Shown here one piece after another: positions 2,299 through 11,311 of a stretch of DNA of 25,691 nt. A program made the translations under genes and the position numbers. Source of the stretch: a virus; the IMG/VR virus record IMGVR_UViG_3300035145_001975, positions 1 through 25,691 of that record; one strand, 5' to 3'. A model generated the notes under the pieces. It did no database searches. It was not told where the DNA came from and saw only the letters and a list, made by a program, of their open reading frames with translations. Position 1 is the first letter of the stretch. Each line of letters begins with the position of its first letter.

Positions 2299-2963
2299 CA
2301 AAAGAATGGTGTGCGGTTCACCACAAAAGTGATCCGCCCCAGTCACCATTTGCGCCTCAATGGGACTTCACCATTGGCGAAAAGCAAATTGATATTGACT
2401 GTGATGAACTAACTAAAATTATTCTACAGAAAGAAAAAGAGATCAAAGATCAGTTTCCTGCCAGCAGTGATGGCAATACTGGTCTTGGTCCTAATAGTCT
2501 TACCTCTAGGTTCAGGCATTTCAATGTCTTGACCTGGGGGTTTCCTGCTACAGATCAGTTACATCAGGAGATTAAAAAGTTTCACAAACAATACTATCAA
2601 AGTATTTTTGGTGTATTCAAATCTGTGCCTAGGGTACGTATTAGATGCTGGGCAAACGTGTTGAGGAAGGGAGAGAGGATCAAAAAACATTGGCACTCTG
2701 TCCACCCACATACATACTTGGGAGGGCATCTAACTGTTGCTGCTGTAGACACCAAGACTATCTATACTCATCCATATGATGATATTGGTAGGAACTACGA
2801 AGCAGAGAATGTGCCAGGTAAACTGACACTATTTCCTAACTATCTCCCTCACTATACTACAGTTAATCAACAGGACACTCCTAGAATTACTATTGCTTTT
2901 GATCTTACTCAACTGACTACCATCTTTACAGATGATGATGACAATACGCTTATACCATTATGA
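2295..2963 (+). CDS. 2OG-Fe(II) oxygenase-like protein
   Basis: A 222 aa protein that looks like the compact 2-oxoglutarate/Fe(II) dioxygenases common in cyanophages. A His-rich block spans residues 132-145 (HWHSVHPHTYLGGH), followed by a strand with GKLTLFPNYLPH, in which His186 is a likely distal metal ligand. The block PRITIAFDL follows, whose Arg197 could bind 2OG. This is the H...H...R layout of the 2OG-FeII_Oxy_5 type. It starts inside the nrdB stop (ATGA) and the next gene starts inside its own stop, so it is co-transcribed with RNR. The substrate cannot be read from the sequence. The second oxygenase at 16885 has a cleaner motif; this one is more divergent. Confidence 0.7.
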   Translation: MTKEWCAVHHKSDPPQSPFAPQWDFTIGEKQIDIDCDELTKIILQKEKEIKDQFPASSDGNTGLGPNSLTSRFRHFNVLTWGFPATDQLHQEIKKFHKQYYQSIFGVFKSVPRVRIRCWANVLRKGERIKKHWHSVHPHTYLGGHLTVAAVDTKTIYTHPYDDIGRNYEAENVPGKLTLFPNYLPHYTTVNQQDTPRITIAFDLTQLTTIFTDDDDNTLIPL

Positions 2964-8056: not shown

Positions 8057-8362
8057 ATGACGTATCCTGCTCCCGCTTACCTAGAAGACGATCCCTGGTT
8101 TGGACCTGCATACTACAGTGAGAAGCAGGAGATTATAAAAGCAAAATACGATCTCTGTGTAGCAGAACATCTACTGCTAGCAGAAGAAACCACTGGTGTT
8201 CCTTCTGACATTCACGAAAGAATGTATCAGATTGCCACTGGTGGTGGTAAAACTACTACTCAACTAGACCCCATGCCACAACTTGGTGGTGGATCAGAAC
8301 AGATTCAATCTGGTCCTGGTGGTTGGATGTCTGGGACAGGGTTTCAACAAGTTTCTAGTTGA
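8057..8362 (+). CDS. Hypothetical protein (101 aa)
   Basis: It begins MTYPAPAYLEDDPWFGPAYY. The helical middle (EIIKAKYDLCVAEHLLLAEE) is followed by a Gly/Gln/Pro-rich tail. No signal or membrane segment is present. Its TGA stop (8360-8362) overlaps the -35 of the tmRNA promoter. I recognise no domain. Confidence 0.7.
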   Translation: MTYPAPAYLEDDPWFGPAYYSEKQEIIKAKYDLCVAEHLLLAEETTGVPSDIHERMYQIATGGGKTTTQLDPMPQLGGGSEQIQSGPGGWMSGTGFQQVSS

Positions 8363-8387
8363 CAACCATTGAACACTGTGGTAATAT
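8359..8387 (+). promoter_or_regulatory. Sigma70-type promoter of tmRNA/tRNA block, TTGACA-N17-TAATAT
   Basis: TTGACA at 8359-8364 and TAATAT at 8382-8387 are 17 nt apart. The predicted start (about 8394) lies just upstream of the tmRNA acceptor piece. No other strong promoter is seen before tRNA-Val, so the tmRNA and the first two tRNAs are probably one precursor. Confidence 0.8.
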
Positions 8388-8393
8388 ATACAG

Positions 8394-8653
8394 TGTTCAA
8401 GAGGTTGCAAAGTCTGTTGTACTGGACAGGGGTTCGATTCCCCTCACCTCCACTCATGGGGGTGCCATGGTTTCGACAGGGCAAAAAGGTTGTAACTGTT
8501 GACGGAACAAAACCATAGATGCAAACACATCTGACTCCGCAGCGAACAACATCGTTGCATTCTCCCGCACTCGCGAACTCGCGACTGCCTGAATGGGAGA
8601 TGGGGGATAGATCATCCTTCTAATCCAACTGATCCTTTGGGGTGCAATGCCCC
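8394..8653 (+). ncRNA. ssrA: Circularly permuted two-piece tmRNA
   Basis: Ribosome-rescue RNA with cyanobacterial (permuted) layout. The acceptor piece comes first: T-arm AGGGG-TTCGATT-CCCCT (8428-8444) and the 3' acceptor strand CACCTCC (8445-8451) with discriminator A8452. A 5-nt linker CTCAT follows, then the coding piece starting GGGGGTG (8458-8464), which pairs over 7 bp with CACCTCC (one G-U). The hallmark D-loop sequence GGTTTCGACAGG follows at 8469-8480. The tag frame (8542-8592) reads ANNIVAFSRTRELATA-stop. CTCCC in the tag pairs with GGGAG just after the stop. CCA is not encoded. A hairpin (GGGGT/GCCCC) at 8639-8653 ends the block. The exact mature ends are estimates. The tag start resembles marine Synechococcus/Prochlorococcus tags, which points to host origin. 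Confidence 0.9.
8542..8592 (+). other. tmRNA proteolysis-tag reading frame
   Basis: GCG to TGA gives ANNIVAFSRTRELATA. The preceding in-frame codon is GCA, so the resume codon could be one triplet upstream, which would add an Ala. The ANNIV-FSR start is typical of marine cyanobacterial tags. The C-terminus, which ClpXP-type proteases read, ends ATA instead of the usual LAA, VAA or similar. Confidence 0.85.
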
Positions 8654-8658
8654 TTTAT

Positions 8659-8732
8659 GTCTTGGTAGCTCAGCTGGATAGAGCAACTGTCTTCTAAACA
8701 GTCGGTCGCAGGTTCGAGTCCTGCCCAAGACG
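8659..8732 (+). tRNA. tRNA-Arg(UCU)
   Basis: Complete cloverleaf: acceptor GTCTTGG/CCAAGAC, D-arm GCTC/GAGC, anticodon arm ACTGT-CTTCTAA-ACAGT with anticodon TCT, T-arm GCAGG-TTCGAGT-CCTGC, discriminator G. CCA is not encoded. It reads AGA/AGG codons, which are common in this window. Confidence 0.95.
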
Positions 8733-8736
8733 CCTC

Positions 8737-8810
<74 letters not shown>

Positions 8811-11100: not shown

Positions 11101-11239
11101 TCGGGATGGGTCCCAGACCCCTCGGGTTTCTTGCTTCTCCATAAAAGCAAGTGGTGCGGGTGATTGTTGCCGCCTGGTTTCTTGTTTCCAGTGAAAGAAC
11201 AAGTGGCGAGCCTAGGGAGAAGTAACGCTCTCCCACCCT
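11101..11239 (+). other. Hairpin-rich non-coding stretch, candidate structured RNA
   Basis: No plausible gene on the + strand. Successive hairpins: GGGTC/GACCC (11108-11120); CTTGCTT/AAGCAAG (about 11130-11151); CTTGTT/AACAAG (about 11180-11202), a diverged second copy of the preceding one, both within GGTTTCTTG...CAAGTGG; and GGGAGA/TCTCCC (11215-11234). It lies directly upstream of tRNA-Gly. It could be a processed leader, a small RNA or decayed RNA genes. Confidence 0.5.
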
Positions 11240-11311
11240 GCGGAGTTAGTTCAGCGGTAGAACGCTATCCTTCCAAGTTAGATGTCGTCGGTTCGATTCC
11301 GATACTCCGCT
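11240..11311 (+). tRNA. tRNA-Gly(UCC)
   Basis: Acceptor GCGGAGT/ACTCCGC, D-arm GTTC/GAAC, anticodon arm CTATC-CTTCCAA-GTTAG (one T-T mismatch) with anticodon TCC, T-loop TTCGATT, discriminator T. CCA is not encoded. It is separate from the other tRNAs and preceded by the hairpin-rich stretch. Confidence 0.93.

Follow-up and report, generated by a model that had tools for sequence, protein, structure and literature searches.

The window, i.e. the whole stretch of 25,691 bases that was analysed, is an IMG/VR virus record with the gene content of a T4-like cyanophage. Genes of this kind in the window encode a ribonucleotide reductase small chain, a transaldolase, a phosphate-binding-like protein, a photosystem reaction-centre protein, T4 RNase H, PhoH and gp32; across the 6-kb neighbourhood, the closest isolates are the Synechococcus phages S-CAM1 and S-CAM3. 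At positions 8394-8653, this T4-like marine cyanophage carries a tmRNA gene that is complete and of the circularly permuted (two-piece) type. The features of the locus are as follows.

8359-8387, plus strand: sigma-70-like promoter TTGACA-17-TAATAT, 10/12 consensus matches, TG before the -10
8369-8400: perfect inverted repeat of 11 bp, TTGAACACTGT/ACAGTGTTCAA, extending over the -10; putative operator (sequence)
8394-8452, plus strand: acceptor (tRNA-like 3') piece, 5' end placed from the promoter; ends in the discriminator A; CCA not encoded
8403-8410, plus strand: 5' strand of P2 (inter-piece helix, outer part), GGTTGCAA, pairing with 8490-8497 (Rfam alignment)
8428-8444, plus strand: T-arm AGGGGTTCGATTCCCCT (Rfam alignment, position check)
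8445-8451, plus strand: 3' acceptor strand CACCTCC, carrying U70 of G3-U70 (position check, relatives)
8452, plus strand: discriminator A (A73; position check)
8453-8457, plus strand: intervening sequence (linker) CTCAT, removal expected (tRNA-Tyr at the equivalent site in the syntenic relative L258)
8458-8656, plus strand: coding piece, mRNA-like plus 5' acceptor (ARAGORN, Rfam, position check)
8458-8464, plus strand: 5' acceptor strand GGGGGTG, 7/7 pairs, one of them G3-U70
8469-8480, plus strand: D-loop signature GGTTTCGACAGG (Rfam alignment)
8490-8497, plus strand: 3' strand of the inter-piece helix, TTGTAACT (Rfam alignment)
8516-8533, plus strand: resume-codon hairpin TAGATG-CAAACA-CATCTG (fold; covariation in 46 phage sequences)
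8521-8592, plus strand: tag reading frame ANTSDSAANNIVAFSRTRELATA and stop codon (ARAGORN, host comparison, position check)
8521-8541, plus strand: phage-specific seven-codon insertion ANTSDSA at the tag start, absent from sampled hosts
8539-8558, plus strand: second hairpin GCAGCGA-ACAACA-TCGTTGC over the ANNIV core (fold; T-A/A-T exchange)
8572-8583, plus strand: hairpin CGCG-AACT-CGCG within the last tag codons (fold; covariation)
8639-8653, plus strand: 3' terminal hairpin GGGGTGCAATGCCCC, then a T-rich run (Rfam alignment, sequence scan)
8659-8734, plus strand: tRNA-Arg(TCT), directly downstream of the tmRNA (ARAGORN)
8737-8808, plus strand: tRNA-Val(TAC), after tRNA-Arg(TCT) (ARAGORN)

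The acceptor 3' strand and T-arm (8428-8451) precede the 5' acceptor strand and tag (8458-8592), which is the permuted order. The initial annotation had proposed a complete phage-encoded permuted tmRNA and a search with cyanobacterial and permuted covariance models as its check. Both models matched above their gathering thresholds in Rfam cmscan: RF01851 (cyano_tmRNA) at 8376-8653 over the full model 1-288 (128.2 bits, E 7.7e-35; threshold 70) and RF04321 (tmRNA_permuted) at 8403-8592 (91.4 bits, E 1.1e-16; threshold 47). ARAGORN likewise predicted a permuted tmRNA at 8363-8683, and in 121 relatives the acceptor helix is retained together with G3-U70, A73 and an open tag. The finer claims also stood: by position check, the acceptor strands pair at seven of seven positions with CTCAT between them, the D-loop signature is present, and the tag frame is open, as ARAGORN also found. 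The proposed bounds fit, 8394 being close to the start expected from the promoter and 8653 the end of the 3' hairpin. The G3-U70 pair is the alanine determinant of charging.

Relatives were collected by three viral scans followed by ARAGORN, which gave 122 cyanophage-type permuted tmRNAs including the window and six isolate loci, or 84 distinct coding pieces. The acceptor strands pair 7/7 in all 122 copies, which between them use seven different sets of pairs; G3, U70 and A73 are each kept in 122/122. In an unrooted tree built from 36 host genes and the 84 distinct phage genes, one side of a branch with 100/100 support holds the hosts and the other side all phage genes, the window's among them; this speaks for no recent exchange in the sample, while the direction of the first transfer is left unset by an unrooted tree. 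Recent capture from a host is thus unsupported. The same gene is present in S-CAM1, S-CAM3, Sf-FS3, S-SSM7, S-SSM6a and AG-345-P14, whose records either leave it without annotation or place hypothetical CDSs over it; in the public records of S-CAM3 (L157, 2985-3125) and S-SSM7 (L160, 2984-3202), the hypothetical CDSs AOV58709.1 and ADO98091.1 overlap the unannotated tmRNA.

The near-consensus promoter of the initial annotation was borne out by its 10 of 12 matches and by a footprint kept in nine relatives: in the 10 aligned sequences (window included) TTGAC and TAnTATATA are invariant while the spacer sequence drifts. The inverted repeat over the -10 has shorter forms in some relatives and is missing from L019 and L027.

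The very short linker had been considered notable, which did not hold up. Where no tRNA is present, phage linkers measure 4-11 nt, apart from one of 220 nt, and 5 nt is the commonest length (39/84 distinct genes); Prochlorococcus host linkers measure 5-9 nt in many cases, those of L069 and L140 exactly 5 nt. A short linker is therefore ruled out as a novelty. Linkers of other picocyanobacteria are mostly 11-39 nt.

Of the 122 copies, 24 carry an intact tRNA-Tyr or tRNA-Asn gene inside the linker, a few bases from the acceptor strand; these copies represent 14 of the 84 distinct genes and 10 distinct inserts. Such genes lie at 13582-13664 in L293, 1886-1968 (minus strand) in L258, 1471-1553 (minus strand) in L274, 2331-2406 in L326, 2878-2949 in L290, 1412-1486 in L260 and 2411-2483 (minus strand) in L292, and the Rfam tmRNA match extends across the nested tRNA in L274, L326, L290 and L260. 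The window's own linker holds no tRNA; its nearest neighbour in the tree is L293, a carrier. Since L258 and the window share the gene order o8057, tmRNA, tRNA-Arg, tRNA-Val, o8824, talC, the tRNA-Tyr of L258 occupies exactly the site of CTCAT. L293 and L274, whose tmRNAs are of different lineages, carry identical nested tRNA-Tyr genes, and the nested gene of L258 agrees at 82 of 84 columns with a tRNA-Tyr that stands free in L298; from these matches, tRNA genes seem to have entered phage tmRNA linkers more than once. A search of known phage isolates with a tRNA-bearing query found no nested tRNA. The nested tRNAs demonstrate that the linker can vary freely, a point relevant to the processing of two-piece tmRNA, and replacement of the linker by a whole tRNA gene fits its removal in the mature RNA. 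Host tmRNA of the cyanobacterial permuted type consists of two molecules on northern blots (PMC1242208); by analogy, and from the tRNA-tolerant linker of the relatives, cleavage of the window's tmRNA into two pieces is a well-supported expectation. The phage permuted tmRNA of L339 (6018-6252, minus strand) has an intervening segment of 221 nt, discriminator included, that consists of repeated TTAGTATTCA/AATACTC-like units and holds no tRNA.

The tag predicted for the window, ANTSDSA-ANNIVAFSRTRELATA, has 23 residues and ends in ATA, and thus departs from the host type of 16 residues with an Ala-Ala end. Tags of the sampled permuted-form cyanobacterial hosts, ANNIVRFSRQ(A/T)APVAA or ANKIVSFSRQTAPVAA, show little change and end in VAA or IAA. 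With ANTSDSA-ANNIV, the window belongs to a long-tag lineage that carries a seven-codon insertion A(N/K)....A before ANNIV. The insertion is present in nearly all phage copies, is exactly seven codons long in all 115 that have it and never contains an in-frame stop; its codons 1 and 2 (GCN AAN) vary at third positions only. Because one viral scan used a tag pattern, these counts were redone on a subset of 44 copies, those retrieved through the tRNA-like part or with blastn, of which 37 have the insertion, again with third-position changes only in codons 1 and 2. One version of the insertion reads ANNIDTA-ANNIVAF, and the sequences suggest an origin from a duplicated tag start.

Tag ends vary, with AA on 14 and TA on 22 of 50 distinct phage tags; in the unselected subset, AA ends 9 of 18 distinct tags and VAA is found in 26 of 44 copies. 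Loss of Ala-Ala is thus not general among phages, and some tags keep VAA. The predicted tag sequence is ANTSDSAANNIVAFSRSTVAA in S-CAM1, with the end STVAA, and AKSSDTAANNIVAFSRILTREFARTDELVTA in S-SSM7; that of the window ends in RELATA. In E. coli, the terminal Ala-Ala of the tag matters most for ClpXP (PMC7652416). In L245 (11162-11461) and L260 (1318-1695), a psbA gene directly follows a phage tmRNA whose tag is short and Prochlorococcus-like (ANNIVSFSRQ..), and a further phage group without the insertion (L021, L028, L223, L259) has tags ANNIVSFRRTAVAV or ANKIVKFERAVVAV, ending in AV.

The Rfam tmRNA models assign no pairing to the tag at its resume codon, and hairpins within the tag were therefore tested by script. 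Around the first Ala codon lies a hairpin of five pairs with changes in both of its strands (AGATG/CATCT, ATCTG/CAGAT), with 0.88 of cells paired against 0.76 in shuffled data and 18 two-sided changes against 3.9. The hairpin in the last tag codons occurs with the pair sets CGC..GCG, GAC..GTC and AGC..GCT (0.82 paired against 0.70; 18 two-sided changes against 7.0), so that the amino acids R..A, D..V and S..A change together. For each of these two hairpins, 0 of 2000 shuffles scored as high, in pairing as in two-sided changes; the shuffles keep the relatedness of the sequences, hence these counts are supportive and are not probabilities. Host tags also have a potential hairpin from the resume codon (GCGAAC..GUUCGU in Synechococcus, GCUAAC..GUUAGU in Prochlorococcus; e.g. 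L084, L041), which may lie behind the R/S difference between host tags.

The best explanation of these observations, taken as a whole and given a probability of about 0.8, is that the gene is a functional phage version of the two-piece tmRNA of marine cyanobacteria, with a long tag, used for trans-translation with host SmpB; this explanation includes long residence of the gene in cyanophages and evolution of its tag separately from that of the host. The gene's own strong promoter would yield one precursor transcript, from which host tRNA-processing enzymes would excise the five-base linker; CCA would be added to A73, and the host alanyl-tRNA synthetase would charge the RNA via G3-U70. Host SmpB would then deliver the charged phage tmRNA to ribosomes stalled on broken mRNA; SmpB was not found in seven phage records (four complete isolate genomes and some fragments), and the host protein is therefore presumed. 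Translation would resume at GCA 8521 and not at the codon that matches the host's first tag codon, which gives 23 residues in place of 16, with seven extra codons and LATA in place of the host's PVAA. The phage would most likely use the tmRNA to keep ribosomes free while host mRNA is destroyed, and proteolysis of the tagged product is possibly weakened or redirected in lineages without the terminal Ala-Ala. Truncated mRNAs stall ribosomes, and a rise of RNase E upon infection would thus give a phage reason to need a tmRNA. Induction of RNase E by a T7-like cyanophage has been described in Prochlorococcus, where it was read as breakdown of host transcripts (PMC10989914). Ribosome rescue by the phage tmRNA in infected cells is likely; selective tagging of host proteins found no support in the analysis.

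The point of resumption could instead be the second Ala codon (8542), which would give a host-length tag ANNIVAFSRTRELATA and leave the 21-nt insertion as a structural leader only. This second copy closely matches the host tag start, and the covarying hairpin formed by the insertion supplies a structural reason for its conservation. Yet the insertion stays in frame, with its seven codons in 115/115 copies, and GCN AAN changes at wobble positions only even though most of these bases fall within the loop of the hairpin; further, the usual resume-codon context is resembled just before the first Ala and not before the second, and ARAGORN places the tag start at the first. The pattern at codon 7 adds less, as it is partly explained by the hairpin and, in the larger set, by the tag search pattern, so that the idea that this codon varies only because it is coding is weakened. 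Resumption at the first Ala is accordingly the start predicted from context and codon pattern, and a start at the second is rather unlikely.

Rescue by the phage RNA has to be weighed also against a decoy that, rather than perform trans-translation, would block that of the host by binding host SmpB or ribosomes. A precedent is the DS6A-type mycobacteriophage RNA, which consists of a tRNA-like domain only and can inhibit tmRNA (PMC4131195; PMC11915505), and the lack of SmpB in the seven phage records searched would suit a decoy as well. A decoy needs no tag, however, whereas the tag frame, stop codon and in-tag hairpins are conserved across the 122 copies and the charging determinants are invariant; we consider it improbable. 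Still less credible is a functionless passenger, be it an att copy or a recent stray pick-up of a host gene. It is true that tmRNA genes often serve as integration sites in bacteria, as Williams is said to have described in 2002 (cited in PMC3037559). Copies at att sites are usually fragments, and the present gene is complete, old in phages and under its own conserved promoter, with constrained pairing and codons; completeness and promoter together rule out an integration-site fragment.

Two-piece phage tmRNA as such is already known in kind. The survey of Buchholz et al. 2022 counts tmRNA in 402 phages, 53 of them two-piece and 50 of these marine or aquatic, and proposes as roles an aid to hijacked translation or the tagging of host proteins (PMC9004378); a tmRNA database of 2025 lists 79 phage tmRNAs (PMC11915505). 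The two-piece tmRNAs of Melnitz, Mosig and AG-345-P14 listed there are likewise permuted and from marine myophages, that of Melnitz being, unlike the window's, of alphaproteobacterial origin and riboswitch-linked; in the passages of the survey that were located, no discussion of tag sequence, tag insertion or linker content was found (PMC9004378). AG-345-P14 and the window carry genes of one and the same phage lineage. With the two-piece tmRNA of Prochlorococcus and Synechococcus (RF01851), the window shares gene order, acceptor and T-arm, inter-piece helix, tag core ANNIV.FSR, 3' hairpin and the lack of an encoded CCA; it differs in its separate phage lineage, the seven-codon insertion, LATA instead of PVAA and the sigma-70-like promoter, and the 5' hairpin of the host gene is not retained in its lineage. 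The tmRNAs of the mycobacteriophages Bxz1 and Wildcat are one-piece molecules. They are also phage-encoded, but not of the cyanobacterial permuted type, and the DS6A RNA with its tRNA-like domain is phage-encoded and, unlike the window's, without a tag (PMC4131195). A tRNA-Ala lies in the intervening sequence of the permuted tmRNA of GCA-2688965, resembling the nested tRNAs of 24 relatives of the window; this is one nominal archaeal MAG, described as "unique" by its authors, whereas the phage contigs are many and carry tRNA-Tyr or tRNA-Asn (PMC11915505). As far as the open-access literature was checked, the phage-only lineage, the seven-codon insertion with covarying hairpins, the altered tag ends and the nested tRNAs are apparently new.

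More tentatively, the lineage might constitute an old, private trans-translation channel of cyanophages, with a tag that spares or reroutes rescued proteins and a linker that serves as a slot for co-processed tRNAs. If so, the altered tag would avoid the Ala-Ala-dependent protease of the host, and tRNAs would be freed together with both tmRNA pieces by the same enzymes. Being confined to viruses and having a lengthened tag with non-standard ends, the lineage offers a direct test of why lytic phages carry tmRNA; if the phage tags proteins and these tags escape host-like degradation, the outcome would be rescue without disposal. S-CAM1, S-CAM3, S-SSM7 and Sf-FS3 are usable for such study at once, and their annotation needs correcting. 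Elsewhere in the window, a wcaG RNA motif (RF01761, 79.5 bits) is present at 11122-11217, just upstream of a tRNA-Gly gene (11240-11311).
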